NCBI GenBank assembly: GCA_003670925.1
Contig: QWQG01000087.1
Span: 1-64,000, forward strand
Direction of reading: 5' to 3'
Length of the DNA stretch: 64,000 bases
Source of the DNA: Planctomycetota bacterium
GTDB lineage: Bacteria > Planctomycetota > Planctomycetia > Planctomycetales > Planctomycetaceae
In this document: positions 13,553 to 30,845 of the stretch, one piece after another
How positions within the stretch are numbered: the stretch's first letter is position 1
Layout of the letters: the number at the start of each line of letters is the position of its first letter
Made by a program: the position numbers and the translations under genes
The notes under the pieces: generated by a model
What the model was told of the DNA's origin: nothing
The model's input: the letters and a program-made list of their open reading frames with translations, nothing else
Databases searched by the model: none

Positions 13553-15067
13553 TCAACTGAGGGCTGCCCGGATGCGATCGACAAGTTTATTGTCGGCCGC
13601 GCTGGTCCCTTTAAGGTTATACATGCTGGCAGCCATAAATTGGTTTCGCACGCGAGGGCTGACGTTGTCATAATCTTCCAATGCCGCTGTACTGAACTTG
13701 TAGTCGTGGGCGTCCGTGCCTTTCAGAAAGATCAAGCGGCGCGCGGCGTTCATCAGCGTTTCAGCACTTTGGCCAGATGACAGGAACGACATGGCGTATT
13801 GCGCAGCCTGCAACGGTTCCCGACCCACGGCATCAAAGACAGTCTCAACGGTGATCGGTTCCTGTGCTTCGACCGCCACCAATGAATCGATCATCGAATT
13901 TCCGATGTCACCCCGCGCCTGCATGGCTTCCCGGAAGAGAGGCAAAAATGCGGCATTCTGCAGCAACAGGAGTTTGCGGGTCAGTGGGGTTCCGACCTGA
14001 TTGAACAGGAAACGAAGAGCATTGGTTGTCGTCGCGGCATGCAGCGAAACGATACCGGACTGACGCATCAGGAGTTCAGCTGCTGCCAGATGCATGGCAT
14101 CGTAGATCGATTGCGGAGCTATCTTCCGATTCACTAAATCGAGGACCAAAGTCGCCGCGTCATTCGCAGAACCTGTTCGCAATGTTGCCAAAAGTTCTGT
14201 TGTCGCCCTGCTGTCTAATGTGCCGGATTCCCAGCCGTCGCGGAACTTCAAGGCCAATTGCTGATTCGTCTTCCACGTACGATCTGGAGCCAGATCACTC
14301 GTTGCCGGATTGGGTTCGCCATTGTGGTTTAGCATCGCATAGGCTAGAGACCGCAGCACAGGCTCCGCATGTTCCCAGCCAATCGTCTGCAGTGTCCGCC
14401 ATGCATTCGCCAAGAAGATGGCCTTATGGCCAATGCTGCGAAAATCTCGCGCGGCATATTCAGCAAACAATTCGAGCGTCTCGGCTGCTCCCAACGACCG
14501 TGCGACTCCTGCCGCCGCGACGTCCGCCTGGGTCACATCCCATTGCCGCATTGCCTGATGAAATGAATCACGAACCTGCCCGGCTGAAGGCACACTGGCT
14601 TCATCGACCGGAGACATCGTCCAGTTTCCCTCAGTCACATCCTTTGCTTGCGAACTCTTGAATTCATCCAAGGCCCAGAGAATGGGGAGCCAGCGATCCG
14701 CATCCGGCGATGCAAGGCTTGCGAGGTGTGCGGAGTGGACGACAAGCACGGCGTGAAACTTGAAACCCACCGCAGGTCGCGGCTCAACGTTGCGGACTCC
14801 TGCCAGCAACAAGGCGGCCAGAAGCTCACGATAGCTCAGCCCATTACGAATGCGACTACCAATTTCTTCAAGCAGTCTTTGCCGCGGCGTTTCTTCGATC
14901 ACTGTTACCAGAGGTGCGATTTCCGGCCGGAGCTGGACAATGCCCTTAGCCTGCCGAATCTGGGCATCACTGACAGGCATCAAACCTGCCACAAGTTGGC
15001 GGGCCGTCAAAATGGAAAAACCGACTGAAGTGGATGACAGGAAGCTGCGACGTGAATGATGGCTCAC
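13553..15067 (-). CDS. Tat-exported protein of unknown function
   Basis: 504 residues from a GTG at 15067, preceded by GGGG seven bases upstream. The open frame extends further, but the extension lacks a ribosome binding site and runs into the upstream gene. The N-terminus 'SHHSRRSFLSSTSVGFSIL' is a twin-arginine leader. The rest is mostly helical and Ala/Leu-rich, with repeated helix pairs ('ELLAALLLAGVRNVEPRP', 'AETLELFAEYAARDFRSIGHKAIFLANAWRTLQ'), suggesting an alpha-helical repeat. Conserved-looking His residues ('FKFHAVLVVHSAHL') could bind a cofactor or metal. I do not recognise a named family. It is the last gene of the ExbBD-kinase operon, 43 bases after the preceding stop. Confidence 0.7.
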   Translation of the reverse strand: MSHHSRRSFLSSTSVGFSILTARQLVAGLMPVSDAQIRQAKGIVQLRPEIAPLVTVIEETPRQRLLEEIGSRIRNGLSYRELLAALLLAGVRNVEPRPAVGFKFHAVLVVHSAHLASLASPDADRWLPILWALDEFKSSQAKDVTEGNWTMSPVDEASVPSAGQVRDSFHQAMRQWDVTQADVAAAGVARSLGAAETLELFAEYAARDFRSIGHKAIFLANAWRTLQTIGWEHAEPVLRSLAYAMLNHNGEPNPATSDLAPDRTWKTNQQLALKFRDGWESGTLDSRATTELLATLRTGSANDAATLVLDLVNRKIAPQSIYDAMHLAAAELLMRQSGIVSLHAATTTNALRFLFNQVGTPLTRKLLLLQNAAFLPLFREAMQARGDIGNSMIDSLVAVEAQEPITVETVFDAVGREPLQAAQYAMSFLSSGQSAETLMNAARRLIFLKGTDAHDYKFSTAALEDYDNVSPRVRNQFMAASMYNLKGTSAADNKLVDRIRAALS

Positions 15068-15110
15068 AGGGACCCCTTTCGAATGTGCGAAGAAGATCGC
15101 AGGCGAACAT

Positions 15111-16832
15111 CTACGGTGTGGGTACGACACTTGGTATCGTCGTGGCTTTACGCTCGGCAAATTTGCGAAGTTGTTCCAGTTCCTGCGCTTCGCGAATCTT
15201 GTTGTCGCTGCTGAAAAATGCCGTAAGCGAATCTTCCATCGCCAAGCATAGTTTTTCGATCTTGCGTTTGACACCAGCGTTACGCTGCAGATCGGCTTTT
15301 GCAGTAGCGGGTGTTTTGATTGTGTTCAGGCGAGACATAAATGTTTGCTGGCCCGGCAGCTCATCGAGTTGCACAATCAGCTTGTCAAGTTCTTCCAGCT
15401 TGCCTTCTGTCGAGGCCTTTTTTGCGAGACTCATCAACACCGCTTTTTGAGCCACAGTGTCTACCAGCGTGTCGCGAAACAGATAGAGTTCTCCCTCCAC
15501 GCCCAGACGCAGTCCGTCGTCTGGAAGCTTGATTGTATCCTGCGGCAGAAGTCCGGGGGCATATGGCACGCGCGCCAGCAACGAACTCCCACTGTAGACA
15601 TAGAGCCAAAACGTGGGATTCTCCGGATCGACTTTAATTTCAAGTTCTCCATTCCGGTCACTCAAAACACGTTCGCTAGGCACATTGTTCGAATCCGTGT
15701 GTCGTAGCTTGGATACTTTGTCCACGCGAAAGCAAATGAGTGGTCGATCGACCTTCGTCTGGAGCACCAACTTGACTCGGCTCTTTGTCGCAGCCGGACG
15801 TTGGCGCAGGGCGATTTGCTGGACGCTGCGACCAGCGCCGCCATAAGGCACCGGGCCATGTGAAATTAGCACGCCACGCACATGGCCGGAATCCTGATAA
15901 ACGGCAGAAGTGTCGCGCGTGACGTCTTTGACTGAAACCGGAGTATCTTCCTTGGTTGCAACATCGGCCCGAAGTTCGGTATTGAATCCGGTCACCCGGA
16001 CATAACATAGATCCAAACGTTGGAGGACTTTGAGTTTATCCGGATTGCGGCGGTCCATCTGTCGCAAAAAAGTGCGCAGCACATCACCCTCGCGGATGAA
16101 TGCGGCAGTCGGGTCGGGGACCGTCAACTCTCCAGCCTGCAGGAGGAATTCCAGTTCGCCACCCACGATCGTAGTTTTTGCAAACAACAATACCGGCCTG
16201 AACGAATCTCGTGTCAGCCGCGTGGCCACGTTCGCAACATCCTGCACATCACCTGTCTGTTCCGTTAGCACGGGCGACATCTCTTGGACACGCGTGTCGA
16301 ATTCGCGGCAACTGATCTTGAAGATGCCGTGCGACTCTTCGATCCCAATTAAGACAACTTTTTGTGCCGATGATTCTGGATATCTTAGCAGCAGTGCTTC
16401 CGGCGTTAATCGCTTCAAGCGTTCCTGCCCGCCGGGAATCAGCCATTCGCTTGCTTGAACCTGCGCGTTCCATGCAGCCCCATACATTCGACCCAAACCT
16501 TTGCGAATCTGATCAACAAGACCCTGACGCAACGCTGGTTGTTGAGTCGCAAGGCCATCAAATCCGATCTCCACAAACACGCGATACGCTTCCCGCGGAA
16601 ACGGAATCACAACCTTGGGTGGCGCCTGAGTTGCCGCTGTTTTCTTGGGCGCTTCGGCTGCCGAGGAAGGCTTTTCGGTCGACAAAGGGGCAGTTGGTGT
16701 GACAGATGCAGCTTCCGCCACAGGTACCGTATCCTGCACAGGGACTGCGTCTTGTGCCGAGGCCGAAAGGCTAACCAAGATAAGCAGCCCCAGCGGGACA
16801 ATGTGCAGGACATCGGCAAGTAATGTTCTCAT
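15111..16832 (-). CDS. Secreted protein of unknown function in the ExbBD-kinase operon
   Basis: 573 residues. A signal peptide (about 1-27, ending 'SLSASAQDA') precedes a low-complexity Pro/Val/Ala stretch to about residue 75. A globular part starts at 'YRVFVEIGFDG' and has alternating strands and helices. The C-terminal 130 residues are charged and helical ('LAKKASTEGKLEELDKLIVQLDEL', 'RKIEKLCLAMEDSLTAFF'), likely coiled coil. No known domain was recognised. Its start codon overlaps the stop of the upstream solute-binding gene (ATGA, 16829-16832), so it is translationally coupled to it, which argues that the two proteins act together in the periplasm. Confidence 0.72.
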   Translation of the reverse strand: MRTLLADVLHIVPLGLLILVSLSASAQDAVPVQDTVPVAEAASVTPTAPLSTEKPSSAAEAPKKTAATQAPPKVVIPFPREAYRVFVEIGFDGLATQQPALRQGLVDQIRKGLGRMYGAAWNAQVQASEWLIPGGQERLKRLTPEALLLRYPESSAQKVVLIGIEESHGIFKISCREFDTRVQEMSPVLTEQTGDVQDVANVATRLTRDSFRPVLLFAKTTIVGGELEFLLQAGELTVPDPTAAFIREGDVLRTFLRQMDRRNPDKLKVLQRLDLCYVRVTGFNTELRADVATKEDTPVSVKDVTRDTSAVYQDSGHVRGVLISHGPVPYGGAGRSVQQIALRQRPAATKSRVKLVLQTKVDRPLICFRVDKVSKLRHTDSNNVPSERVLSDRNGELEIKVDPENPTFWLYVYSGSSLLARVPYAPGLLPQDTIKLPDDGLRLGVEGELYLFRDTLVDTVAQKAVLMSLAKKASTEGKLEELDKLIVQLDELPGQQTFMSRLNTIKTPATAKADLQRNAGVKRKIEKLCLAMEDSLTAFFSSDNKIREAQELEQLRKFAERKATTIPSVVPTP

Positions 16833-19447
16833 GGGCGCACGATCCAGCGTTCAACGTTCTGATAGGGAGACATTGGTTTTTCGGGAATTCCCAGCGTTGA
16901 TTTTTTCCAGACAGCAAACTCATCTACTTCCCAAAGCGGAATGATGAACGCTTCGGCCGCCAGATGACGGTGAATCGTGTACAGACGATCCTGAGCGTCC
17001 ACGAAACTGGCAGAGTAGTCAAGGTTGACCAGTTCCTGCCGCATCCAATCTGGAAACAGCTTGAGACGATTGATATCGAATGATGGATCATTTGTCAGCA
17101 GCGGCCAGAGTTCCAGTAATGGTTCTTCCATGCGAATGCGGCGATAACACAGATCCCAGTCAGCATCCTGTAGCGGTGCCCCCAGTTGATCACCTGGAAT
17201 CAGGTCGATTTCAAATAGGATCTTCTTCCAGTACTCCGCCATACGCGCGGCGGCCTCCATGGACGTCGGATCTGGATCAACCACCATCCGCAGACGCGGC
17301 AATTTGATATAGTCGACATTGGTGATTTTGCGGAATGCTTCACTGTCAAATTTATCTCCCGTTTCTTGGGCTGTGGCCTTTGCCGCGGTCTCCAGTTTTG
17401 TAAGTTCGGCAAGTTGCAACTGCCGCTCAGCTGCGAAGCGTAAGGCATATGCCAGCCTTAAATTGAATTCAGGTGGCTTTTCCAACGGATTCGTCGCGTA
17501 GCTTTTTAGATGCCATGGAGCACTGGTTGGCCGACCATAACGCATGGCTTGGTCGCGCAAGATGATCGATTTGAGAATCGCTTCACGATTCACAGCAAAC
17601 GATAACGCACGTCGCATTTGCGCGTTCACGATGCGTTCGGAAAGCGGATTAAAGGTAATCACATGCGTGATTGGCAAAGCATACTCTCGCACCTGAAATG
17701 CTGGTGCAGCTTTGAACGCATCAACTTCCCACGGCAAGAGATTGGGCAGATAGTCAATTTCGCCGCGAATCACAGACTTCAATAATTCGTTGCGATCCGT
17801 AAAACTCTCTTCGCGGACTTCTGCAACATGATACTTGCTGGGATCCAGTCCATCCGGTTCCGGACGTTCCCGAAGATACGATGTGCCTGTGTTGTCGGCT
17901 TCGCCCAGCTTGAACCTCGTCGACAGCAGGGTAGCACCAGTGCCATCCGCAGGTATCATTTCAGCCGACGGTTCAAGTGTCGCGGTTGCATCAGATTTTT
18001 CATTATCAACAATTCTAGGAGCCGCAATGATGGGAAATCGTAACAGCGATTCAATACTCAAGGGAACTCGCGAAAATCGAATCTTCAATTCACTGGGCGA
18101 ACGGACAGACACTTCGCGCACAAAGGACCCGAGGCGGGAATCGAACAAAGGGCTGGTCGGATCCATGCGGCGTCCCAACGCATCGGCGATTTGATTCGCA
18201 GTCAGCAAGGGCTGCGATTGCCATGTGGGTCGCGTTTCACGGAGGGTAAACACAACTTCGCGGCCTAGATCGGTCGGATCCCAGATCTCAAAGTAACTGG
18301 AACGAAAATAGGTCATTTCATCAGCGCTGGTCGGTTCGAACAGTGACACCTCGACAAGTTCACGTTGCCGTTCATCAGATTCTCGCGGTGACGGATAGAC
18401 GATCTCAGAACCTCTCGACTCATCAATCGCGACATGCAGCACTTGGTGCCGAGCTACGGTCTGCGCAAAGATCGCGCGGGAATTTCCTGAGGATGGCCAG
18501 ATCGCCTCTGCTTTCCAAGCCAGATCGGCTGCAGCCGCAAACTCGTGCTGGCTGGTTTGTTGTTTGGCATCGTTGAGCAGACTGTCGGCCATCGACCGCA
18601 TCCGACCTTGCCAGAGTGTCGCTGTTTCATGTCCCGGAAAAACTTTTTCAATCCTCGAAATCAGATAACGGGCCTTATTGAAGTCTTTATCCGCCACCGC
18701 AATCTCGATCAGCGGTGCGGCGATTTCTCCGAAGCGAGGTCGTAATTCGGGATTGTTGATGTTGCGATTTGCGAGTTCGTCCAGCAAAGCCAACGCGGCA
18801 TAAATATCACCGTCTCGGGCACGCAGTCCAGATTCCACCAGCAGCAGATTTTCAAAACGCGGCTTTGAAAGTTCCCATGCAGGGAATTCTTTTTCAACAC
18901 GCAGTAAAAGTTCATACGCCGTGCGAATGTCACCTTCCTTGAGCAATTCATCTACCCGGCGAAGCATGATTTCTTCAAATAGAATGATATGGTTGATCGT
19001 TGAAATCGGCAGATAGTATTCTGCAACTGCGTTCCCTGGCAGCTTAACGATGAGTTGCTTCAGATTCTTCAATCGCATCGTGCGTTCGGCACGTTCTTCG
19101 TCATTTTTGGGCTTGCTGACCTCGATTTTATCGTAGGTTTCTGCCATCGTTTTGAGCGTATCGGGGCGTGTTTCTAACGGGCTCACAACAAGGACGACAC
19201 GGTCTGCTTCAAGCGATGCATTCAGCACGATCCAGTCAAATGCTTTGCCGTTAGGATCATCAGCCCGCAACAATTCATCGGCTGTCGGCAACTGCATGTC
19301 TGTCAGCTTCGGCAGTTCTGACTTGGCGACTTTCTCATCACCGCAGGCTGCTGGCCCGCTCAACACCAAGCCGATGGCTAAGGCGATAGCCCCAAGCAAA
19401 CATGGTGTGCGGGTGATGAGTTTTTCGGACGTGATATTATGGCTCAT
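16829..19447 (-). CDS. TPR-like/extracellular solute-binding (SBP_bac_5) fusion protein
   Basis: 872 residues with a signal peptide (about 1-36). Residues about 60-340 are helical and TPR-like ('DIRTAYELLLRVEKEFPAWE', 'DIYAALALLDELANRN', 'DFNKARYLISRIEKVFPGHE'). From about 370 a family-5 solute-binding domain follows: 'DLGREVVFTLRE', 'TANQIADALGRRMDP', 'RGEIDYLPNLLPWEVDAF', 'RRALSFAVNREAILKSIIL' and a C-terminal 'HRHLAAEAFIIPLWEVDEFAVW'. Family-5 proteins normally deliver oligopeptides, nickel or glycosides to ABC permeases, but no permease or ATPase is encoded nearby. The protein is twice the usual length because of the helical N-terminus. Its place in an ExbB/ExbD operon suggests a role in sensing or coupling rather than ABC import; that is inference. 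Confidence 0.85.
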   Translation of the reverse strand: MSHNITSEKLITRTPCLLGAIALAIGLVLSGPAACGDEKVAKSELPKLTDMQLPTADELLRADDPNGKAFDWIVLNASLEADRVVLVVSPLETRPDTLKTMAETYDKIEVSKPKNDEERAERTMRLKNLKQLIVKLPGNAVAEYYLPISTINHIILFEEIMLRRVDELLKEGDIRTAYELLLRVEKEFPAWELSKPRFENLLLVESGLRARDGDIYAALALLDELANRNINNPELRPRFGEIAAPLIEIAVADKDFNKARYLISRIEKVFPGHETATLWQGRMRSMADSLLNDAKQQTSQHEFAAAADLAWKAEAIWPSSGNSRAIFAQTVARHQVLHVAIDESRGSEIVYPSPRESDERQRELVEVSLFEPTSADEMTYFRSSYFEIWDPTDLGREVVFTLRETRPTWQSQPLLTANQIADALGRRMDPTSPLFDSRLGSFVREVSVRSPSELKIRFSRVPLSIESLLRFPIIAAPRIVDNEKSDATATLEPSAEMIPADGTGATLLSTRFKLGEADNTGTSYLRERPEPDGLDPSKYHVAEVREESFTDRNELLKSVIRGEIDYLPNLLPWEVDAFKAAPAFQVREYALPITHVITFNPLSERIVNAQMRRALSFAVNREAILKSIILRDQAMRYGRPTSAPWHLKSYATNPLEKPPEFNLRLAYALRFAAERQLQLAELTKLETAAKATAQETGDKFDSEAFRKITNVDYIKLPRLRMVVDPDPTSMEAAARMAEYWKKILFEIDLIPGDQLGAPLQDADWDLCYRRIRMEEPLLELWPLLTNDPSFDINRLKLFPDWMRQELVNLDYSASFVDAQDRLYTIHRHLAAEAFIIPLWEVDEFAVWKKSTLGIPEKPMSPYQNVERWIVRP

Positions 19448-19501
19448 TGAATTGCCGAACAGATCGTTTCAAATGGATTGAAATTACAGGAATCCAAGGC
19501 G

Positions 19502-22500
19502 CTACATCCCAACGTTCTCGGCGATTTGATACAAACTTCCATCTTGAGCAATCACGATGATCTGACCATTTATGTTGAGCGGGCCCTGTTGAATTGCTTG
19601 GCCCAGTTGCACGACAGAGTCAGAAACAGTGCCGTCGGGGTTGAGGCGAATCAGCTTCCCGTCGGTGCGTGCAATGAGATAACTGAGATCGGAAAGCAAC
19701 AGTGGGTCACCAGCAAGGGCGTGTCCATCTAGGGGAAACGACGCTGTCTGCGGCAGGCCACCTTCGGTTTTAAACACGCGGACGTCCTTATTTGCCACTT
19801 CGACAAACACAAAGCCACCGGCCACCTTTGGCATCGCGTTGGGAATCGTCCCCAGATCTATTTCGGCTAGGCGTTCGAGCGTGGTGGCTTGCAGCATGAC
19901 AAGCTTTCCGTCAGTAGTGGCGAGAAACAAAAAGTCCCCTAAAATCGCGGGGGGCAGTTCAATCAGATATGGGACATTCGTCACGCTCAGTTCCGCAAGC
20001 TGCGGCCGCGGCGTCGCGCGGAATTCGGCGCGGACAAATTGATTGTCTGCGTTCACTGCTAGGACTTGAGTCGATGAAATTGCCGTCAGCGATTTCCAAG
20101 GCTGTTGTTGATTTTGCGTCTGAGACGCGCGATAATCTTCTGCCGTCTGTCCGCCAGCGATGGCTGAAATATGCAGCCGGCCTGGCATGGCGAATACGAC
20201 ACCACCATCCAACGCAACTGGGGGCAACTGTGGTGCGTCAGGCAGAGTCCATTTTCGCTCCAGCTGCCCGGTCGACGTGAATGTCCACATGGCTGGTTCG
20301 GGCGCCCCGCACCATGCCGCGACTCGGCCGTCTTTCAACGCCACACCACCGACCTCTGAGGTGAGTTTATCCGGCAGGCGGAAGCGACTGGTGGATTCGC
20401 GCTGAAAACCACCCTTGGCGATATCTGCCATCGACACGCGGTATGCTTCACCGTAGTCCCCAATCGCAAGCAATGAATCTCCGCCAGCAGCAGGTCCCAC
20501 AGCCACCAGTTTAGAACCAAGCACAGTACGCCAAGTTCCCTTCATCTCTTCACGATTGGTACGCGTGAAAAACACCGATGACGACTGTGGATTTTTTGTC
20601 GTCAGAAATACGGCTTCGTCCACAAACTGAATTGGCTGCAGATGAATGCCTTCCGCTGTGATGCCGGAATCAAGCAAAATCGTATTGGTGCGCGTCTGAA
20701 ACTTTCGCAAATCGCGTCCCGCGAGCCACAATTGGGCACTGGGGCCAGCAAGAAGAAACATGCGAGTCTGGATCCCCTCCTCAAGTTGATTCGCACCGAC
20801 GCGAGAAAGCGGCGGATGGCCAATTTCTTCTGCCACGCGAAACGCGGTGACGCGCTGCGGTGTGGAAGGGACAAACAAATCGTAGCCACGCAGCAGGCAC
20901 GGATCGTTGATCTGTCCCTCAATGGGATCTTCAGTCTCCACTTTGAGTCCGCCGTTGGCGTCGATATTCAACGTCTGGATCCGCGCTGTTTCAGCAGAAA
21001 CGTTATCGCACATCAGAAAGTATTTTCCCGCTGCTAGCATTGGCGTTTTTACGCTGCCGGCTTTGTGGGGAATCTGTGAGACGGCAATGCAACTGAGTGG
21101 ATTCAGGCTCAGGGTATAGACCAACGTCTCGTCACCCGGGATCACCAGTTTTGAGCCATCACTGGCGAGAGCTGGCGGTCCGATGATTGACTGCGAAAAC
21201 TTCAGGCGTGACAAGGCGTGGCCATTTGCGACGGCAATTTGCCACATTTCATGATTTTGAGTGGTAATGAAAATTTGGTCTGAAACGACAAGCGGCATGG
21301 CACTGGGCCGCCCCTCAAGTGGTTGACGCCATAACAGATGTCCGTCGTGCTGGGACAATAGTTGCAATTCGCCCGACAGCGTGCTGAAAATCAGCACGCC
21401 GGGTTCGGTTCCTTTGACTGCGATCGGAGCGAACGGTGAATCCACGCCTACTGGGTGTCGCCAGAGCGGATCACCCGTGTCGGCATCTAGGGCGAAGACA
21501 CTGTCAATGCCGATTCCAAACACTGATCGACCCTGCGACGACAAGTCGGTAGCTGCCTGAGTCCTCAAGGCCAAAGACAGGGATTTGAAGTTTGCCGCGT
21601 TGTCCACAGCCTTGAGTGCATCGAGGCCTTCACTGTGGACCACAAGTTGTTTTTCTTTTTCCAAAATCTCCTGCTGGATGGCGTTCAAATCTTTGTCGCC
21701 AGTGAGGCCGGGGTAAGCCTCAAGGAGGCGGTCTCGAACGCCGATCGCAGCGATTGTCTTGCCAGTTTCCAAGAGCTCGCGGATCTCTGTCACGCGAGAT
21801 TGGAACTCCGTCTTCTTTGCAATAGCAGCCGATGCTAGTCGTTGTAAACGCTCCAGTTCCGCTTGGCGATCTGGTTTAATGCCCGCTTCACCCGCATACC
21901 GCTTCATGATTTCCATCGCAGCAATGCTGGCATCTAGGGCCTTCTGATCCTGAGTGACCTCAGCGACAATCGACCCAGCGTAAGTCAAACGGTCTGCATA
22001 AAGTCGGATTTGATCTTTGATGTCATCAAATCCAGGTAGGTCGCGACAGACTGCTTGGAGTTGGGTGAGTTCCTCCAGTCCTTTGATCACGTCCGGATAC
22101 TCCGTCATGATGTTTTTTTCGACACGCGTACGGTGCAGGCCAATTCGTGCGGGATCGGCAGAAGCCGACTGTGAATAGCTTGCTAGGAAATTTAGAAACT
22201 GCCCGTCGGCATCGATATACCGTTGCTGATCCAGTGACGCTACGGCCTCCTTGAGTTGTCGTTCTTCGCGCGTGTGGGCTGTCATAAACCAGAAAATGCC
22301 GGCCAGCAACATTGCGGCGAGCGTCATGCCGGTCAGACCTAAGACAATGGGTGACCTGCCGATCTTCTGTTCACCTGGTCGCTCTGGCCCCCCCGTCAAT
22401 TTCTCTGTGAGTTGGGAGAATCGTCCACGGGACAACTGTCGTTTGGCTAGGGCTGCCTGCTGCGCACGCGTCGCTTCTGCAGCGGCATCCACAGCGTTTT

Positions 22501-22522
22501 TACCGAATTCTTTCTGGGCCAC
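19502..22522 (-). CDS. Membrane-anchored PQQ-type beta-propeller protein
   Basis: 1006 residues from a GTG. A cytoplasmic N-terminus of about 55 residues precedes one membrane helix ('IVLGLTGMTLAAMLLAGIFWFMTA', about 58-81). A helical, TPR-like stretch follows (about 85-290, 'EERQLKEAVASLDQQRYIDADGQFLNFLASY'). From about 320 a PQQ/BamB-like propeller begins, with recurrent strands: 'VFALDADTGDPLWRHPVGVDSPFAPIAV', 'LQLLSQHDGHLLWRQPLEGRP', 'VYTLSLNPLSCIAV' and 'LVMLQATTLERLAEIDLG'. It is probably an inner-membrane protein with a large periplasmic propeller that binds a partner. It sits 43 bases after the kinase-ExbD gene and 54 bases before the solute-binding fusion. Confidence 0.85.
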   Translation of the reverse strand: MAQKEFGKNAVDAAAEATRAQQAALAKRQLSRGRFSQLTEKLTGGPERPGEQKIGRSPIVLGLTGMTLAAMLLAGIFWFMTAHTREERQLKEAVASLDQQRYIDADGQFLNFLASYSQSASADPARIGLHRTRVEKNIMTEYPDVIKGLEELTQLQAVCRDLPGFDDIKDQIRLYADRLTYAGSIVAEVTQDQKALDASIAAMEIMKRYAGEAGIKPDRQAELERLQRLASAAIAKKTEFQSRVTEIRELLETGKTIAAIGVRDRLLEAYPGLTGDKDLNAIQQEILEKEKQLVVHSEGLDALKAVDNAANFKSLSLALRTQAATDLSSQGRSVFGIGIDSVFALDADTGDPLWRHPVGVDSPFAPIAVKGTEPGVLIFSTLSGELQLLSQHDGHLLWRQPLEGRPSAMPLVVSDQIFITTQNHEMWQIAVANGHALSRLKFSQSIIGPPALASDGSKLVIPGDETLVYTLSLNPLSCIAVSQIPHKAGSVKTPMLAAGKYFLMCDNVSAETARIQTLNIDANGGLKVETEDPIEGQINDPCLLRGYDLFVPSTPQRVTAFRVAEEIGHPPLSRVGANQLEEGIQTRMFLLAGPSAQLWLAGRDLRKFQTRTNTILLDSGITAEGIHLQPIQFVDEAVFLTTKNPQSSSVFFTRTNREEMKGTWRTVLGSKLVAVGPAAGGDSLLAIGDYGEAYRVSMADIAKGGFQRESTSRFRLPDKLTSEVGGVALKDGRVAAWCGAPEPAMWTFTSTGQLERKWTLPDAPQLPPVALDGGVVFAMPGRLHISAIAGGQTAEDYRASQTQNQQQPWKSLTAISSTQVLAVNADNQFVRAEFRATPRPQLAELSVTNVPYLIELPPAILGDFLFLATTDGKLVMLQATTLERLAEIDLGTIPNAMPKVAGGFVFVEVANKDVRVFKTEGGLPQTASFPLDGHALAGDPLLLSDLSYLIARTDGKLIRLNPDGTVSDSVVQLGQAIQQGPLNINGQIIVIAQDGSLYQIAENVGM

Positions 22523-22565
22523 TTTGGTATCCGATCAAATTTCACTGAAGCCATTTCGAGTACTG

Positions 22566-24098
22566 TCAGAGTTCCTGAATCTTGTTTTTCACCCGCAGAA
22601 AACCGGCCTGCATCGCGGCATCAATCACGGTCAATCGCATTTCGTGCGTGGAATCAGGATCCAGAATCAGATCCACATCATTCACGCTACTATTCAATGA
22701 TTTTTCAGCCGTCAGCAATTCCAGAATCTCTTTGTAAGTCTGTGCCTTCTTGTCGCCGACAAACACCGTGTTTTCTCGATCAACTTCGATGCGTACGCCG
22801 GAGTCGGGCATTTCTACCTGAACATTCATGGATACTCCGTCTGAGTTTTTAGCAGGCGGTACATCAAACGCCTTCTGCAGACTGAACGACGCTGTGATCA
22901 TGAAAAATATGAGCAACTGAAATGTCACATCCACGGCGGGTGTCAGGTCAATGTTCGCTTCTTGGCTGACGCGCTTCTTTTTAGGAATCGGCGGCAAATC
23001 ATCAACCACGCTTAAGACCGGAGTTCTGGATGTCAGCCACGACTGCGTTTCTTGTGGCGGAATGAACTCTTCGACCTCAACTATCTGCTCGGGCATCACC
23101 GTGGTCACCCCGGCCACGACGTCGGGACCAAGCTGCATTTCCTCATCGTCCACATTGGCAAAAGATCCGGCGCTGCCGAGACGACTTTGCTTGCGGCGTT
23201 CAACGTCGGCCAGTCGCTCTAGCTCCTCAAGGCGTGGCAAGCGCACGAGATCCAGCGATCGTCCCTGCTTTTGGGCCACAATCAACTTCTTGAGATCTTC
23301 TAGGACTTCATCCGCAGACTGATATCGCAGCGACCGCCGCTTGGCCATCATGCGATGTACCAGACGGCAGAGCACATCGGGCAGGGCTGGATTTTTTTCC
23401 TTGAGCGGCGGCGGAGAATTCTTGAGATGTTGCATCGCGATCGCAACTGCGGTGTTCCCCTTAAATGGGGTCTCCCCGCATAGCAATTGATACGCCGTGA
23501 CACCAAAAGAATACACATCCGATCGCGGATCAAGTTCGCGACCGCTGACTTGTTCAGGACTCATGTAAAGCGGCGTCCCCATCGTGACGCCCTTCTTTTC
23601 TGGCCCTGAATCCCCCAATTGAGCCAGTCCAAAGTCGGCAACTTTGACTTCGCCTTTTTGCGTAATTAAGATGTTTTCAGGTTTGATGTCGCGATGCACA
23701 ATGCCTGCGGCGCCAGACGCTTTCAGTGCGGCGGCAACCTGGCGCATCACATGCAGAGCCGAGGCGATTTCCGGTTTGCCGCGTCCTTTCAGGATCGTCG
23801 CTAGGTCTTTGCCTTGCACGAATTCTTGCGCGATGTAGTGCAGGTCACCTTCTTGACCAATCGTATAAACCTGCACAATGTTGGGATGATTAAGTCCAGC
23901 AGCCATCATCGCTTCTTGTTTGAAGCGGGCTACCATGTCTTGTCCCGAATGCGCCATCAGCGATGGTTTCATGACTTTTACAGCTACGTAACGCTGCAGC
24001 GTTGTCTGTTCCGCAAGGTAAACATCAGCCATGCCACCGCTGCCCAGCGGTCGCAGTAACTGAAATTCACCCAGTTTTTTTTCTGTCAGATCGGCCAT
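22566..24098 (-). CDS. Ser/Thr protein kinase fused to an ExbD/TolR domain
   Basis: 510 residues. An N-terminal Hanks-type kinase (about 12-272) has a Gly loop 'LGSGGMADV' (18-26), the invariant Lys41 in VAVK, 'HRDIKPEN' (135-142, catalytic Asp137), DFG (155-157), and activation/P+1 segment 'GTPLYMSPEQ'. A charged linker (about 275-375) leads to a full ExbD domain (about 376-510). The ExbD domain has 'IDLTPAVDVTFQLLIFFMITASF' split over 383-405, with Asp390 at the proton-path position, then a periplasmic domain. ExbD has a cytoplasmic N-terminus, so the fusion places the kinase in the cytoplasm and is topologically sound. All catalytic residues are present. SD AGGTGA lies just upstream of the ATG. 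It follows a stand-alone ExbD by 72 bases. Probably a regulated or regulating subunit of the ExbB/ExbD motor. Confidence 0.93.
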   Translation of the reverse strand: MADLTEKKLGEFQLLRPLGSGGMADVYLAEQTTLQRYVAVKVMKPSLMAHSGQDMVARFKQEAMMAAGLNHPNIVQVYTIGQEGDLHYIAQEFVQGKDLATILKGRGKPEIASALHVMRQVAAALKASGAAGIVHRDIKPENILITQKGEVKVADFGLAQLGDSGPEKKGVTMGTPLYMSPEQVSGRELDPRSDVYSFGVTAYQLLCGETPFKGNTAVAIAMQHLKNSPPPLKEKNPALPDVLCRLVHRMMAKRRSLRYQSADEVLEDLKKLIVAQKQGRSLDLVRLPRLEELERLADVERRKQSRLGSAGSFANVDDEEMQLGPDVVAGVTTVMPEQIVEVEEFIPPQETQSWLTSRTPVLSVVDDLPPIPKKKRVSQEANIDLTPAVDVTFQLLIFFMITASFSLQKAFDVPPAKNSDGVSMNVQVEMPDSGVRIEVDRENTVFVGDKKAQTYKEILELLTAEKSLNSSVNDVDLILDPDSTHEMRLTVIDAAMQAGFLRVKNKIQEL

Positions 24099-24170
24099 AA
24101 ATCACCTGTTGAATTCAGCTATTGGCTGTAGTTGGTCCGCCCTATCCAAAAATCAAGCATTGACATCGAG

Positions 24171-24626
24171 CTAATCTCGTCGATCTTGGACCCCAAAGTG
24201 ATAAGTCACGCCGGGGATCTCCGAGAGCAGCACTTCGATCTCATTCAAATCGCCATTTTTCATAGTGCGGTCGGCCAGAATCATCACATGGATCCCATCT
24301 GCTCTTGCACCAGCCTGCTCTTCGAGTGCTAGTTTGAGTTCGTCCAGATTGACTGCATCTTTATTAATTTCAATCTGAGGTGCCTCGCCGGATACGGCCG
24401 CCGGTTTTACAACCACGTTGATAACCTTGGCGACTTCGATTGAGCCACCAGACTTTGCTGGTGGCAAATCAGCAGGCGGATTGCCCTGCATCGTGGACGT
24501 CACCATAAAGAAGATCAGCAACTGAAATGTTACGTCGATCATCGGGGTAATATCGATTTCCGTGTCCGGCAGAATACGCTTCTTGCGAACATACACTTCG
24601 TCATCGTCTTCAGCCACGTCGGACAT
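24171..24626 (-). CDS. ExbD/TolR family biopolymer transport protein
   Basis: 151 residues, the normal length. A short cytoplasmic acidic N-terminus is followed by 'EIDITPMIDVTFQLLIFF' (23-40) with the essential membrane Asp31, then a periplasmic domain ending 'LLSEIPGVTYHFGV'. With ExbB/TolQ it forms a proton-driven motor in the inner membrane. The membrane segment is almost identical in wording to that of the ExbD domain in the downstream kinase fusion, consistent with a heteromeric ExbD dimer. It lies in the middle of the operon. Confidence 0.93.
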   Translation of the reverse strand: MSDVAEDDDEVYVRKKRILPDTEIDITPMIDVTFQLLIFFMVTSTMQGNPPADLPPAKSGGSIEVAKVINVVVKPAAVSGEAPQIEINKDAVNLDELKLALEEQAGARADGIHVMILADRTMKNGDLNEIEVLLSEIPGVTYHFGVQDRRD

Positions 24627-24722
24627 ACGAAAATTCCGATTGTAAAATCTGGTTAGCGAACATTAAAACACGTTGCTGAGATCTGGTTTGACAATGCCCT
24701 TGCACTCACGCACAACCGCAGT

Positions 24723-25445
24723 TTACGGCGTCCCGCCGACGCGTTGTTGCGCCGCTGCAAGTTCTTCCAGCAACGGTCCTAGTCCTTCATCTACAGATTC
24801 TTGCAGGCCATTGATTTTGTTCTGGGCAGCAGAGTTCAGCACAATTAGCGGAATTGAAATGGCCATTCCGGCAGCCGTTGTCCATAAGGCGAAACTGATG
24901 TCTGCCGCCAGTTCTTTCGGTTCAACACCCGAATTTGATGCACCGGCAATTTTGGAAAACGCATTGATCATCCCCAGCACGGTGCCCAGCAATCCGAGTT
25001 GTGGGGCGGTCTTGATGCTGGTGGAAACCCAATTGTTGAGCCGATCTAGGCCCGTCATAATGTCGCGTTCAAATCGTTCCATCAGCATCTGACGGATTTT
25101 TCCGATTGGACGGTCACGCTGCTGCACAGCGAGCGTCGCCAACTGTGGCATCGCGCGATTCCAGAGGGCAGGTGTATCGCACAAAGCCAACGCGGCGTCG
25201 AAGTCATTCCGCTCAAAGCATTCGCCAATTTCGTTCAGAAACGCTTGCTCAGCTGCGATACCCGGGAATGATTTTTGCTTAACTCTGCGGAACAACATGT
25301 AGCCGCAAAATGCTCCTAACATGGCGCATGCCGCAATCCCGATCCAGATGGAGTTTTCCACCACCTTCATCATGAACGAAGCTTCAATTTTTTTATCTTG
25401 AGCCAGCGTGAATACAAAGCTAGCACCGTTCTGCAACCAGTTCAT
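24723..25445 (-). CDS. MotA/TolQ/ExbB proton-channel family protein
   Basis: 240 residues from the ATG at 25445; the frame is open further upstream, but that part lacks membrane or family features. There are three membrane segments: about 31-53, and a pair at about 150-175 ('APQLGLLGTVLGMINAFSKIA') and 185-210 ('DISFALWTTAAGMAISIPLIVL'). The conserved ExbB signature 'LGLLGTVLGM' is clear. A cytoplasmic loop carries 'ERFERDIMTGLDRLNNWVSTSIK'. It would form the pentameric channel around the ExbD subunits encoded next. The gap to ExbD is 96 bases. Confidence 0.92.
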   Translation of the reverse strand: MNWLQNGASFVFTLAQDKKIEASFMMKVVENSIWIGIAACAMLGAFCGYMLFRRVKQKSFPGIAAEQAFLNEIGECFERNDFDAALALCDTPALWNRAMPQLATLAVQQRDRPIGKIRQMLMERFERDIMTGLDRLNNWVSTSIKTAPQLGLLGTVLGMINAFSKIAGASNSGVEPKELAADISFALWTTAAGMAISIPLIVLNSAAQNKINGLQESVDEGLGPLLEELAAAQQRVGGTP

Positions 25446-25526
25446 AGGACATTCCGAGAAGACGAGAAAGGAGAAACGGAAAGATGTAGAGAAGGTTGAA
25501 TTCCTGACGCAAGGCGACACATCCCA

Positions 25527-26453
25527 CTACTTTAACAACTGCTTCTGGACAAAAAACTCATAGCCACTGCCAGCTTTGCGAACTCGAAAATATGTTTTTC
25601 GGATTTCCTCCGCAGTGTGGCCTCCAAATTCCTGTTCAATTGTGGCCATCAGCGTTTCCGTGTCTGACGTATAAAAGTGCAGCACTGCCGCAACTGAGGC
25701 ATCAATTCCGGCTTTTTGAAACAGCTCAACATCTGCCACTTTACGGTCCTCACTGCCATCAGCCCAATTCATAAACAATCTTTGTTCAGCGCCAGCCGCA
25801 CCTTCCTTGATCTCGCGCGTGGGAGGTTTGTCGGCACTCATGTTGCTCATGTAGACCAGACGGCTTTCCGCAGGGAACATGGCTCCCAGTTCGATACCAA
25901 AAAAATCCAACTGGGCGGCATAGCTTTGCAGATCGCCCTTGTCTGCGAATTCGACGATCCACCGCTGTTCCCGTTTTGTGCCGCCGCGACCACCACCACC
26001 CGTCCCCAATGGCCGACCACCTGTCCCATCGGCGCTGCCGGGGTTACCTGTGTTCTTTGAACCGGTAAATTCATTTGGGGCGACTACAGCCGCCGCATTT
26101 TCAGAGACTTCTACAATCTGTTCGACGACTTCTTCAAGTTCAGTCACGTCTGTTTCTTCGTTGGCGAGTGACGGATCGTCCGATGCGTCCTCCGGCGATT
26201 CCACGTTGGGAGTGGCGTTGGGGTCACCGTCTTCCCAGCCGCCGTCTCCCGGTGGCAACATGACCACTTGCTTTTTCTGCGTCGACGGGAGGAAGTTGGA
26301 TAACCAGATGATGATCATTACGATTAACGTCAGGAGAGCGCACAGAGCCGATGTGGAAAGTGCCGAGACAGTGATGTCGTACTTTGTCAATTTAATATGT
26401 GGCGAACGGATCGGACGCGTCGCGCGGGCGCTGTTTTTTTCAGCAATCGACAT
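25527..26453 (-). CDS. Membrane-anchored linker protein of the ExbBD-kinase operon (TonB-like layout)
   Basis: 308 residues. A short cytoplasmic N-terminus and one membrane helix (about 30-52, 'STSALCALLTLIVMIIIWLSNFL') lead to a long Pro/Asp/Glu/Gly-rich linker (about 60-165), containing 'TELEEVVEQIVEV' and a Gly-rich run. A C-terminal globular domain of about 140 residues follows ('QRWIVEFADKGDLQSYAAQLDFFGIELG' onward). The layout (anchor, extended periplasmic linker, end domain) is that of TonB or TolA, and it is first in an operon with ExbB and ExbD. The end domain does not look like a TonB or TolA C-terminal domain, so TonB-like here describes topology and context only. AAGG stands seven bases before the ATG. 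Confidence 0.78.
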   Translation of the reverse strand: MSIAEKNSARATRPIRSPHIKLTKYDITVSALSTSALCALLTLIVMIIIWLSNFLPSTQKKQVVMLPPGDGGWEDGDPNATPNVESPEDASDDPSLANEETDVTELEEVVEQIVEVSENAAAVVAPNEFTGSKNTGNPGSADGTGGRPLGTGGGGRGGTKREQRWIVEFADKGDLQSYAAQLDFFGIELGAMFPAESRLVYMSNMSADKPPTREIKEGAAGAEQRLFMNWADGSEDRKVADVELFQKAGIDASVAAVLHFYTSDTETLMATIEQEFGGHTAEEIRKTYFRVRKAGSGYEFFVQKQLLK

Positions 26454-27011
26454 GGGACGACCTTTTAGAACGCGGGACAGGTTTACGCTCAGTACCGGAA
26501 CGGTAGCGTCAGGCAGCGCCGGATTTTATCGAATCGTGAGCATTCTGACAAAGAACTCAATGCCGTCCACAAAAAAAACTTCGCGCAATCAACATTTGCT
26601 TTCAATCTTGAGTGGGTTTGGGCTGCGGAAAAGTTATTTTCGGGGGGGGGTAATGATTTGTGCGAGTTTTGTTCGAAATGGAAACAACTACGTTTGAACA
26701 TGCTCCTTCTCCCCTGAGTTCAGGCGAGAAAGTGGCCGATAGGCCGGATGAGGGCGTTGTTGAGCCGGCCATCGTGCGCACAAAGCCCCCTCACCATGCC
26801 GTCTCTCCAAATTCGTTGGCGGCGACACTGCGACATTTTACAGGGTGCAAACATGCAAACGAATTGGAGGAGAAGGGGACACTTTTGGTTGGTTCCAATC
26901 AGAACAAAGCGTATTGTAAAGATGAACATGCCGCATGCGTCTCTTTTGCGCAGGCCCGTTGCACCCTACAGTATTGTCTGTTTGATTCGTCTTACCTTTA
27001 TCCTCTGAATT
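26454..27011. other. Divergent intergenic region between the ExbBD-kinase operon and pabB
   Basis: About 560 bases that must hold the promoters of two divergent transcripts. A run of nine G sits at 26642-26650. A segment around 26700-26800 ('CTCCTTCTCCCCTGAGTTC', then 'GGCCGATAGGCCGGATGAGGG') looks like a fragment of a common planctomycete intergenic repeat. No gene is supported. Confidence 0.55.
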
Positions 27012-28451
27012 ATGCCTGTGTCTGTCCTGATCTCAAATCTTGATCCCACTCTCGACGTACTCTGCACTTTGGCCGCGTTTGAGGATGCACAATTTGTGGT
27101 GCTTTTTGACAGCGCAGCCCGACATCGGGAACGCGACGCGCGGTATACAATACTCACCGCCGATCCAGTCGCCATAACGCGGCTCGACAGCGTGATGCTT
27201 GGTGACGATCCGTTCAGCATCCTCCGCACATGGCAGGCGCGTCTCCCGGCGTTGCCCGCCGAGCAGTGTGAAACGTTGCCGCCATTTTGCGGTGGAATCG
27301 CGGGCTTGTTGTCGTACGAACTTGGTCAGGCGTTCGAGAGAATTCCAACCCCCGCAAGCGACGACTTCAAAACCCCCGCACTGCTAGCCGGACTCTTTGA
27401 CTGGGCGATCGTTTGGGATCACATCGAAGGTACCGTTCATCGTTACGTGTTGCAACTTCAGGACCTTCCGTTGCCGGAGCCCTCAATGACGCACTCTGAC
27501 CGCGTCGCATGGATTGATGAACGCCTGCAGCGCGACATGAATCACAATTCCACATCCGTCTCCGTACCCATTTCAAATTTGCAGCCAATCGCGCTCGCTG
27601 AGCGGCATCATCGGATTGAACCAACTTTCGAGATTTATTCCGATTTCACTCGCGATGAATATACCACGGCTGTTGCTCGAGTCATCGAATACATCCGCGC
27701 GGGCGACATCTTTCAAGCCAATCTGTCGCAACGGTTGTTGGCGCCGTGGTCAGGCACAGCGACTCAACTTTACGCCAGCATTCGAACCAACAACCCAGCT
27801 CCATTCTGCGGTTTGCTCAAGGCCGACGATTTTTCCATCGTCAGCGCGTCACCGGAACGATTTCTAAAAGTCGATCGGTCGCGGCAAGTGGAAACTCGAC
27901 CAATCAAAGGCACGCGCCGCCGACTACGTTCTCCGATTGCCGACCTCTACGCCAGTGAGGAACTTTCGACGAGCGAAAAAGATCGCGCGGAGAATGTTAT
28001 GATCGTTGATCTGTTGCGAAACGATATTTCTAGGTCGTGCAAACCTGGATCCGTGCGCGTCACCGGACTCTGTGAAGTCGAACGTTTTGAAACGGTTCTG
28101 CATCTTGTCTCAACCGTGGTGGGAACCCTCCGCGACAACTGTGATGTTTGGGACCTGATGGCAGGTTGTTTTCCTGGAGGTTCAATCACTGGTGCACCCA
28201 AAATTCGTGCGATGGAAATCATTTCCGCATTGGAACCAACCGTTCGCGGTGCCTACTGTGGAAGCCTGTTCTTCCTCGGACCCTGTGGCGACTTTGACAG
28301 CAGCATCCTTATTCGTACGTTCACGCTCAAGCACGGCTGGGTTCAATTCCCCGTGGGCGGTGGCATCGTCGCCGACTCGGAACCTCTCGACGAATACCGC
28401 GAGACGCTCCACAAAGCCTCTGGCATGATCCGCTCCCTGCGGACGACGTGA
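27012..28451 (+). CDS. pabB: Aminodeoxychorismate synthase component I
   Basis: 479 residues of the chorismate-binding family. The N-terminal domain has 'YTILTADPVA' and 'FCGGIAGLLSYELGQAFE'. The C-terminal domain has 'FQANLSQRLLAP', 'PERFLKV', 'RPIKGTRRR', 'ENVMIVDLLRNDISR', 'GSITGAPKIRAMEIISALEP' and 'GAYCGSLFFLGPCGDFDSSI'. Lys299 in PIKGT is the residue that distinguishes PabB from anthranilate synthase TrpE, which has Ala there, so the p-aminobenzoate (folate) assignment is favoured. The glutaminase PabA and lyase PabC are not in the window. Cytoplasmic. Single gene on the plus strand. Confidence 0.9.
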   Translation: MPVSVLISNLDPTLDVLCTLAAFEDAQFVVLFDSAARHRERDARYTILTADPVAITRLDSVMLGDDPFSILRTWQARLPALPAEQCETLPPFCGGIAGLLSYELGQAFERIPTPASDDFKTPALLAGLFDWAIVWDHIEGTVHRYVLQLQDLPLPEPSMTHSDRVAWIDERLQRDMNHNSTSVSVPISNLQPIALAERHHRIEPTFEIYSDFTRDEYTTAVARVIEYIRAGDIFQANLSQRLLAPWSGTATQLYASIRTNNPAPFCGLLKADDFSIVSASPERFLKVDRSRQVETRPIKGTRRRLRSPIADLYASEELSTSEKDRAENVMIVDLLRNDISRSCKPGSVRVTGLCEVERFETVLHLVSTVVGTLRDNCDVWDLMAGCFPGGSITGAPKIRAMEIISALEPTVRGAYCGSLFFLGPCGDFDSSILIRTFTLKHGWVQFPVGGGIVADSEPLDEYRETLHKASGMIRSLRTT

Positions 28452-28553: not shown

Positions 28554-30845
28554 TCAGTCAATTTCCTGGGAAATCATCGTTTGATCAAATCCCGGAGTCG
28601 TCATTGATGGTTTTTCGGACGAACCTGAATCCGGTGCGACACGATCGCCCCGAGTCAGGAGCGTCGGGACGGCAACCATCGAGGCATTGACTTGGGCTGC
28701 CGGCAGTCCGCGTTCGTGCCGACTCCACCATCCGTCGGCTTCATTTTCCGTCCACTTTTGTGACTCGGGCAAGCGTGCTAGCATGTGCGCGAGGTTACGC
28801 GCTGTCTGAGGGCGTTTAGCGCGATTTTTTTCGAGGCAGGCCAGAATCGCATCTTCTAATTCGGGTGAGATTACCCGGCCCAAGCGCTGTGACGGCGGCA
28901 CCGGAGCCTGATCAACGTGTTGCCGACACAACTCCATGATGTTGGTGGCGGAAAACACAGGATGTCCAGTCAGGAGAAAGTATGCGACTGCACCGACGGC
29001 ATACAGGTCACTCCGATTGTCCACCGCCAGCGGTGACTGAATTGCTTCGGGAGACATGTAAAGCGGCGTACCCGTGAGCGAAGCATTCGCCGTCATCCCT
29101 GCGTTTTTATTTTCATCCAGTGCTTTCACAAGTCCAAAGTCGAGAACCTTCACCACGTCAGGTTCACTTCCTCGGCGATTCAGCATGATGTTGGATGGTT
29201 TAATGTCGCGATGCACGAGTCCCTTTGAGTGGGCCTCGTACAAAGATCCACAGACCTGCTTCAAAATGTGGATTACCCGACCTTCTGGCTGAGGCCCGTA
29301 TTTCTCTACCAGTTGCTGCAGATCTAGCCCATCCAGAAACTCCATCGCATAATAAAAGACGCCTTCTGGTGTTCGTCCGTAGTCGTAAATCGCGATTGTA
29401 TTTGGATGATTGAGTTGACAGGTAATCTGAACTTCTCGTTCAAAGCGGGCTGTCGAGGCGGCATCAACCTTGTCGATGCTCAGCATCTTCACGGCGGTTG
29501 GGCGCCGCAGCATGGCGTGATGCGCCTTGTAGACGACACCCATGCCTCCGGCCCCCAGTTTATTTTCCAATTCGTATTGCCCCAGTTGCTTCGCCTCGAC
29601 AGCGGCTTTCTGCGCGTCTTTCGTCATGCGAGCTACCACCAAGGTGAACACAAAAATGACAACGGAACTTGCCCCCAGCAACACGTACAATCCGGTAAAC
29701 ATCCACTGTAAAATTGTCAGCGGGCGAAAGGCTTCCTCGTAATCAACTTCGGTGGTCACTCCCATGCCATATTGGTCCAACCACTTCCACGCGCCGACGA
29801 CTGGTACGCCGCGATAATCATTGTAGGGTTCTACTGTGACGGCCGAGTTTCCAGCGACGGCGTTGGCTGCCATCGTGGTCAGTGACTGTTTGCCTCGTCG
29901 CAACTCAGGCCGCGCCCCTTGGGTGACATCAACGCCCGGATTTCGAATCTCAATGTTTAGCAGTGATTTAGAATTCTCATGATCAGCCAGCAGTCCAGCC
30001 ATGATCAGTTGCTCGTCAAATCGACTATTGGAAACCATGACGCCTTGACGATCAAACGCATATGTCTCCCCAGACTCGCCAAGGCGTCCCAACTGCAAAA
30101 TTTCCGTAAACTTTAATTCGGGATGAAACTGGAATGCTAAAAGCCCCGTCACCTGCATGCGCTCGTCGCGAATTGGTGCGGAGACCAGCATGATCGGGAC
30201 ACCCGTGCGAGTTTTTCCGTAGGTGTCCTTGAGTGCATCAACGCTCAAGAACGGCGGGCAGACGGTTGTTTTTCCATCCAGCATTGCCGTGAACAGGTAT
30301 TCTAGTCCAGGTACTTCGACTTTGTTGATCAGTTCAGGGGACGAGGCCGAGAGGATTTTTTGGTCCTTGTCGGCGATGATGTACCCGACGTAATTGTGGG
30401 CGGACATCGTCGGTGACAGTTCGTGACGCAGTTCAGCGTGCAGATCTGGAATCGAAGTTTCGGTGCCGAGATTGTGTGTCGATGCTGGCCTACCAGTTTC
30501 CATTAATTGATCAACAATCTCCCGCACGCGCATCCGGTTGGCCGCACTTTCGGCGTTCGATTCCTGAACTTCAAACCATGTCTGCAGCATCGACGTCTCA
30601 ACGTTGAGCAGCGTTTGCAGTTGCGATTCAAGATGTGCTCGGATCGTATATGAAATGGCAGAACGCACTCCATATCCCAGCGTTGACAAGAGCACGACGG
30701 CGATGATTGGCCAGATCCATAGCCGTTTTTTTAGAAACATCCTTGTTTGCGATATTGAATGCCCAACGCGCGAACGAGCAAGCGTGAGGTGTGTTCCGGT
30801 CTGCTTGTTGACAAGGGGTATCAGGCGACGAAACAATCCAGACAC
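28554..30845 (-). CDS. Receptor Ser/Thr kinase: extracellular Cache domain with C-terminal kinase
   Basis: 763 residues from a GTG at 30845; the ATG at 30740 (M36) is an alternative with AAGG immediately before it. TM1 lies at about 42-62, a double-Cache-like periplasmic sensor at about 65-370 ('YVGYIIADKDQKILSASSPELI', 'VSAPIRDERMQVTGLLAFQF', 'GESGETYAFDRQGVMVSNSR'), and TM2 at about 376-404. A full Hanks kinase follows at 425-690: Gly loop 'LGAGGMGVVY', Lys453, 'HRDIKPSN' (545-552), DFG 569-571, 'GTPLYMSPEA'. The sensor-TM-kinase order is that of histidine kinases rather than of most bacterial Ser/Thr kinases, which carry sensors C-terminally. The ligand is unknown; Cache domains usually bind small metabolites. 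Confidence 0.88.
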   Translation of the reverse strand: MSGLFRRLIPLVNKQTGTHLTLARSRVGHSISQTRMFLKKRLWIWPIIAVVLLSTLGYGVRSAISYTIRAHLESQLQTLLNVETSMLQTWFEVQESNAESAANRMRVREIVDQLMETGRPASTHNLGTETSIPDLHAELRHELSPTMSAHNYVGYIIADKDQKILSASSPELINKVEVPGLEYLFTAMLDGKTTVCPPFLSVDALKDTYGKTRTGVPIMLVSAPIRDERMQVTGLLAFQFHPELKFTEILQLGRLGESGETYAFDRQGVMVSNSRFDEQLIMAGLLADHENSKSLLNIEIRNPGVDVTQGARPELRRGKQSLTTMAANAVAGNSAVTVEPYNDYRGVPVVGAWKWLDQYGMGVTTEVDYEEAFRPLTILQWMFTGLYVLLGASSVVIFVFTLVVARMTKDAQKAAVEAKQLGQYELENKLGAGGMGVVYKAHHAMLRRPTAVKMLSIDKVDAASTARFEREVQITCQLNHPNTIAIYDYGRTPEGVFYYAMEFLDGLDLQQLVEKYGPQPEGRVIHILKQVCGSLYEAHSKGLVHRDIKPSNIMLNRRGSEPDVVKVLDFGLVKALDENKNAGMTANASLTGTPLYMSPEAIQSPLAVDNRSDLYAVGAVAYFLLTGHPVFSATNIMELCRQHVDQAPVPPSQRLGRVISPELEDAILACLEKNRAKRPQTARNLAHMLARLPESQKWTENEADGWWSRHERGLPAAQVNASMVAVPTLLTRGDRVAPDSGSSEKPSMTTPGFDQTMISQEID

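Follow-up and report, generated by a model that had tools for sequence, protein, structure and literature searches.

Whether a run of same-strand genes that sets an ExbB/ExbD motor beside a Ser/Thr kinase, a beta-propeller and a solute-binding protein encodes a single envelope machine, and what such a machine would do, is the question raised by this planctomycete locus. It lies in a window of 64,000 nucleotides (contig QWQG01000087.1), to which all coordinates below refer. An initial annotation, made from the letters alone, had described eight genes as one operon, inferred to encode a phosphorylation-controlled, proton-driven machine that spans the envelope and serves either uptake or envelope maintenance.

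Gene content and boundaries of the locus

All eight open reading frames were present on the minus strand, from 26453 to 13553, with gaps below 100 bases and one ATGA overlap, as previously described. They are listed here in 5' to 3' order of the operon, followed by two features upstream of it.

25527..26453, minus strand: link, an inner-membrane-anchored protein of TolA/TonB-like shape (sequence layout, family alignment)
24723..25445 (reading frame open from 25520), minus strand: ExbB/TolQ-type motor subunit (Pfam MotA_ExbB)
24171..24626, minus strand: ExbD1, a TolR/ExbD-type axle subunit with the proton-Asp motif DITPMIDVTF (Pfam ExbD)
22566..24098, minus strand: kinase-ExbD2 (Pfam Pkinase and ExbD)
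19502..22522, minus strand: inner-membrane-anchored propeller protein (Pfam PQQ_2)
16829..19447, minus strand: TPR-SBP, a secreted TPR-like/SBP_bac_5 fusion without ABC transporter genes (Pfam SBP_bac_5)
15111..16832, minus strand: u7, secreted (structure model, family profile)
13553..15067, minus strand: u8, possibly Tat-exported (open reading frame)
26523..26551, minus strand: promoter-like site TTGTCA-17-TAAAAT just upstream of link (best scan match, not above chance)
27012-28451, plus strand: divergent trpE-like gene, the upstream boundary of the unit (family from reading the translation)

Pfam matched the five products that had already been named, with E-values of 3e-20 (MotA_ExbB), 5e-17 (ExbD), 1e-50 and 1e-13 (Pkinase and ExbD of the fusion), 4e-15 (PQQ_2) and 1e-15 (SBP_bac_5). 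The first, seventh and eighth genes (link, u7 and u8) had no significant Pfam family. From 5' to 3', the intergenic gaps are about 81, 96, 72, 43, 54, -4 and about 43 bases, the value of 81 assuming an ExbB ATG start at 25445 and the last value a u8 GTG start at 15067; the longest u8 frame, from 15274, overlaps u7. The gap of -4 is the ATGA overlap of TPR-SBP and u7 at 16829-16832. Promoter and terminator scans of the operon stayed at chance level, and it is from spacing and conservation that we infer transcription as one unit.

Downstream, a DUF1592-type gene (family from reading the translation) follows the unit on the same strand after 209 bases. Upstream, past the trpE-like gene, a second membrane Ser/Thr kinase gene occupies 28554-30845 on the minus strand; it has a large, probably periplasmic N-terminal sensor region, and its kinase domain shares only 35% identity with the ExbD2-fused kinase. 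The window also holds an Rfam Acido-Lenti-1 RNA at 283-328 on the minus strand (41.8 bits versus a gathering score of 37). We know of no function for this RNA family.

Conservation of the unit and its modules

Relatives were found with the TPR-SBP protein in 51 of 59 genomes, and in neighborhoods of up to 20 kb, a profile of each protein family was scored against all open reading frames. Early profile labels of "ExbD" for unfused kinases and of "DUF1592" for ExbD proteins were artefacts of profile drift; they were not used and the profiles were rebuilt. The order link > ExbB > ExbD1 > ExbD2 > propeller > TPR-SBP > u7 was complete in 31 genomes, including the one studied here, and several further loci were incomplete merely by contig ends. 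Gene order across planctomycete genomes had been proposed as a check on the operon, with scattering in relatives as an outcome that would speak against it. The order was kept, and the splits that occur fall at module borders. ExbB-ExbD1-ExbD2 stands apart from link-propeller-SBP-u7 in family f2 and in G025; in G052, which belongs to this pattern, link-propeller and SBP-u7 are also separated on one contig. In family f4 (G044, G048), the split lies between link-ExbB-ExbD1-ExbD2 and propeller-SBP-u7. Link is alone at a separate place in G018, G269 and G334. The link gene thus adjoins the motor genes in some lineages and the periplasmic-set genes in others, a pattern which fits a part that would join the two. 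Of the 41 loci compared, that of the nearest relative (G001) alone had a homologue of u8. The eighth gene of the proposed operon was therefore dropped, and the conserved unit consists of seven genes.

The distribution was determined in 294 evenly sampled Planctomycetota, 21 of the window's class and 273 others. Link is present in one copy per genome in all 21 class genomes and in 0 of the 273 others. The same count was obtained for u7, except for one weak match outside the class (1 of 273; G094), and full-length TPR-SBP occurs in no genome outside the class. The seven-gene set is class-restricted and single-copy where counted. Both link and a full-length SBP are missing from one class genome of family f4 that is 94% complete (G039), and the system is thus not essential in the strict sense. 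Family f3, in which distant homologues of the SBP and of the link C terminus were seen and the rest was unrecognizable, was not counted.

Several observations were made alongside these comparisons. G094 encodes distant homologues of TPR-SBP (866 amino acids) and u7 (684 amino acids) on separate contigs (L145, L146), a possible outgroup to the system. An operon with an SBP 85% identical to that in the window is carried by L031 (CAMAVB010000012.1), which is titled Candidatus Kuenenia stuttgartiensis; all other carriers of the system belong to a different class, so this bin name is probably wrong. Family f2 has an exported protein of ~550 residues whose gene was seen in five loci (L061-L064, L067), each time directly upstream of link; by eye, the protein resembles prenyltransferase/squalene-cyclase repeats. 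In family f4 (L072, L073), a gene for an ECF-like sigma factor and one for an anchored protein of ~1000 residues were recognized by eye upstream of propeller-SBP-u7.

Motor, signaling domains and envelope partners

The transmembrane Thr residues T180, T214 and T215 in TM2/TM3 of ExbB are invariant in the family alignment, and the proton-binding Asp motif is kept in both ExbD1 and ExbD2. Together, these residues make a working 5:2 proton motor likely. The presence of one ExbB and two different ExbDs suggests that the axle would be an ExbD1/ExbD2 heterodimer. With a score of 46 bits for the TolQ equivalog against a cut-off of 221, membership in TolQ/TolR applies at the superfamily level only. 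Other clusters with one ExbB and two ExbDs occur in the same genome: L140 (G000:C186:16000-30000), with the order TPR-ExbB-ExbD-ExbD-unknown-DUF4159-TPR-F5/8C, and L141 (G000:C235:1-6500), with the order TPR-ExbB-ExbD-ExbD. When scored with the operon ExbB family, their ExbBs reached 77-90 bits, whereas members of that family reach roughly 300-370, and these clusters were rejected as copies of the same system. Given such clusters, the motor of the operon could be shared.

Kinase-ExbD2 consists of a cytoplasmic Hanks-type Ser/Thr kinase (residues 13-257), a linker of ~100 residues and an ExbD domain (379-504) with the motif LTPAVDVTF. The catalytic Lys, HRD and DFG are present, and all 10 fused copies that were examined have intact catalytic motifs. 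The fused copies of G031 and G007 are split by frame breaks, which may be assembly errors. Outside one clade, the N terminus of ExbD2 is formed by a zinc-ribbon-like Cys4 domain (MPIRFRCxxC...CPxC), after which come the transmembrane and periplasmic parts of ExbD; the Hanks-type kinase replaces this ribbon in the window's genus, G022 and G031. In a tree of six concatenated proteins, the kinase-fused genomes are monophyletic with a support of 0.98, for which a single domain swap is the simplest history. The kinase on ExbD2 is a derived, lineage-specific replacement of the zinc ribbon. The kinase-ExbD fusion described in the initial annotation is real, but is found in this clade only. Between kinase and ExbD, most of the fused kinases of the genus carry a short TT[VI]M or TSVM-like motif in an otherwise variable linker (within 22566-24098), a possible autophosphorylation site. 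A plasmid search with kinase-ExbD gave no full-length match.

Phospho-signaling modules recur beyond this fusion, and to that extent the phosphorylation theme of the annotation is borne out. A Pfam FHA domain was found on the propeller in 10 of 18 examined cases and in none of the kinase-fused clade; it is also missing from the propeller of G023, a genome without a fused kinase. In family f5, the N terminus of the propeller is an 'LTxYQAxxL' helical module, which also stands at the start of the separate kinase gene that abuts u7. A kinase gene lies 3-10 bases from u7 in G040, G049 and G057, and in G044 one immediately precedes link. Kinases are numerous in planctomycetes and nearby ones may be there by chance, so only genes in these two positions were counted. 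Signaling-type cytoplasmic domains on ExbD2, on the propeller or on both occur in nearly all lineages examined. Cytoplasmic signaling modules thus persist across lineages but are exchangeable. The papers searched described no such combination of a rotary envelope motor with Ser/Thr signaling, and ExbD is absent from the main text of a survey of planctomycete Ser/Thr kinases (PMC11032199).

Link combines an N-terminal transmembrane helix, a low-complexity linker of ~110 residues and a conserved C-terminal domain of ~140 residues, in which W165, Y178, L182, W230, D241, F260, E273 and Q305 are invariant in the alignment. At its start, the transmembrane helix has a near-invariant Y/F-D/E pattern and then a Ser that is conserved in most cases; in 38 sequences, the helix contained neither a conserved His nor an SHLS-type motif. 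Pfam and PDB profiles assigned link to no family, gave neither a TolA nor a vWA match by sequence, and produced PDB matches at chance level only. An AlphaFold model built from three input sequences had a pLDDT of 38, and no claim about the fold is made.

In the window, the propeller protein has a short cytoplasmic tail without FHA, a transmembrane helix, a TPR-like region and a PQQ_2 beta-propeller. The profile of TPR-SBP matches NikA/DppA (5e-23), and solved relatives of its SBP_bac_5 domain include a murein-peptide binder (4toz, 3o9p), which would suit a role in wall sensing. No ABC permease or ATPase is among the operon genes, and relatives show the same partner genes of the SBP. In u7, a modelled domain (residues 83-210) is followed by a beta region and a helical C terminus. 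A Foldseek search with the u7 model gave TolB, PelC, FlgT, GNA1162, LpoB and CsgG as best PDB matches to this domain; all are proteins of the periplasm or outer membrane whose alpha/beta domains are related. The model was built from 4 sequences with a mean pLDDT of 47 (~60-80 in residues 83-210), the TM-scores are low over the whole query, and a PDB profile search with u7 returned no matches; at low confidence, u7 may thus carry a periplasmic domain of the TolB-N/PelC/FlgT type.

Relation to known systems and possible function

The unit resembles Tol-Pal in its TolQ/TolR-type motor, the TolA-like tethered transducer layout of link, its beta-propeller and, at the low confidence of the model, the TolB-N-like domain of u7. 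Unlike Tol-Pal, it shows no sequence homologue of TolB or TolA, has no Pal gene in the operon and encodes two different TolR-like proteins; its propeller is a separate, membrane-anchored protein, and an SBP_bac_5 partner and cytoplasmic signaling domains are added. TolB_N (PF04052) was found in 0 of 18 class genomes, and Tol-Pal is reported to be largely reduced in Planctomycetes (PMC8871954). That the locus comes without a TonB or Pal gene, as had been remarked, holds for the operon, in whose eight genes no Pal/OmpA domain was found, and for the TonB C-terminal domain, which had 0 matches in the genome, but OmpA/Pal-type proteins are encoded elsewhere in it. The TonB C-terminal domain is present in 4 of 18 class genomes, outside the cluster in each.

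An ExbB/ExbD motor with a TonB-shaped link is also reminiscent of ExbBD-TonB, from which the operon is set apart by the lack of TonB_C, a receptor and the His of the link helix, and by its extra large periplasmic proteins. The PknB-type receptor kinases share with kinase-ExbD2, whose best match is the PknB family, a cytoplasmic kinase, a single transmembrane helix and a periplasmic domain, but where they have PASTA repeats, kinase-ExbD2 has an ExbD motor subunit. Among published systems, the closest is a tethered vWA transducer of PVC bacteria, encoded together with a TPR gene, one TolQ-like gene and two TolR-like ones (PMC12204202). The motor plan, the TPR partner and the helix-linker-globular layout of the transducer are the same, whereas the transducer itself appears different, and propeller, SBP_bac_5, u7 and FHA/kinase modules are not described there. 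According to PMC8567305, Mahajan et al. 2020 reported new biopolymer-transport families in Gemmataceae, with which the operon may overlap. Salt induction of exbB and exbD in Rhodopirellula baltica (PMC2754498) was set aside, as orthology to the operon is not established.

Planctomycetes are rich in kinases, propellers and ExbB/ExbD genes, so ordinary unrelated genes could have come together by chance; this extremely improbable reading is refuted by the class-wide conservation of order and single-copy pattern. It is also very unlikely that the operon is itself the vWA force-transducer system, despite the TPR-tolQ-tolR-tolR-vWA gene order of the latter, because link has no Pfam vWA match and lacks the conserved His and SHLS of the helix, and because separate clusters of that general type, one with DUF4159, lie on other contigs of the genome with the distant ExbBs noted above. 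AglRQS of Myxococcus consists of one TolQ-like and two TolR-like proteins. A surface or gliding motor of AglRQS/Glt type, driving envelope proteins along the cell, would account for this shared 1:2 ratio of motor genes and for TPR and large periplasmic partners, but no Glt-type partner was identified among the operon products, which include SBP and kinase modules instead, and we regard it as highly improbable.

Uptake and sensing are serious rivals to a Tol-like role. In the former, the motor would energize TonB-like import of a polymer or peptide across the outer membrane, with SBP_bac_5 capturing the substrate in the periplasm and propeller and u7 together providing the docking path. The clear profile match of SBP_bac_5 to peptide/nickel binders agrees with it, as does the endocytosis-like uptake of macromolecules in planctomycetes reported in PMC5394234; it is nevertheless unlikely, given a genome without TonB_C, an operon without genes for an outer-membrane receptor or ABC permease/ATPase, and a class-wide single-copy conservation that looks more like a housekeeping envelope role. 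Ranked below it, and likewise improbable, is a PMF-gated receptor in which ExbB/ExbD would relay periplasmic ligands or wall state sensed by SBP and propeller to FHA, kinase or zinc ribbon. The widespread cytoplasmic signaling-type domains, the kinases fused or adjacent in several lineages and the orphan state of the SBP are in line with such a sensor. A pure sensor, however, would need neither the conserved residues of the proton path in ExbB and in the two ExbDs nor the TonB/TolA-shaped link, which is always present in the class sample.

We give about an even chance to the reading that the seven genes encode one proton-driven, Tol-like trans-envelope machine with cytoplasmic phospho-signaling modules. 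In such a machine, an ExbB pentamer around an ExbD1/ExbD2 axle would form the proton-driven 5:2 motor, and link, anchored beside it, would act as force transducer, with a flexible linker that lets its C-terminal domain reach into the periplasm. This domain would act there on an assembly of the anchored TPR/beta-propeller protein, TPR-SBP and u7, the last facing the outer membrane or peptidoglycan through its TolB-N/PelC-like domain. Most likely, the machine would work in a Tol-like way and tether or remodel the outer membrane and the wall in cycles, while its solute-binding domain would sense or capture peptides or wall fragments. The zinc ribbon or kinase of ExbD2 and the FHA or kinase-type module of the propeller may couple the state of the motor to Ser/Thr phosphorylation; in the window's clade, the kinase is carried by the predicted axle subunit itself. 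No outer-membrane protein, Pal or receptor gene is in the operon. The earlier proposal of a proton-driven trans-envelope machine is in keeping with the conserved motor set, the TolA/TonB-shaped linker protein and the large periplasmic partners, and the matches of the u7 model, the lack of TolB_N in the 18 class genomes and that of TonB_C here make the Tol-like role the guess with the best support, though one that is far from proven. A bolder form of this reading, which we hold to be doubtful, is that the unit is a class-defining replacement of Tol-Pal whose heterodimeric axle with kinase would read motor rotation or load as intracellular Ser/Thr phosphorylation.

The motor plan is already known, while the transducer, the periplasmic set and the kinase-ExbD fusion are new. 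We found no described function for this class-wide motor operon in the literature, and, being single-copy where counted, it is a concrete candidate for deletion and assay. The kinase-ExbD fusion would be a direct physical tie of a rotary envelope motor to Ser/Thr signaling.
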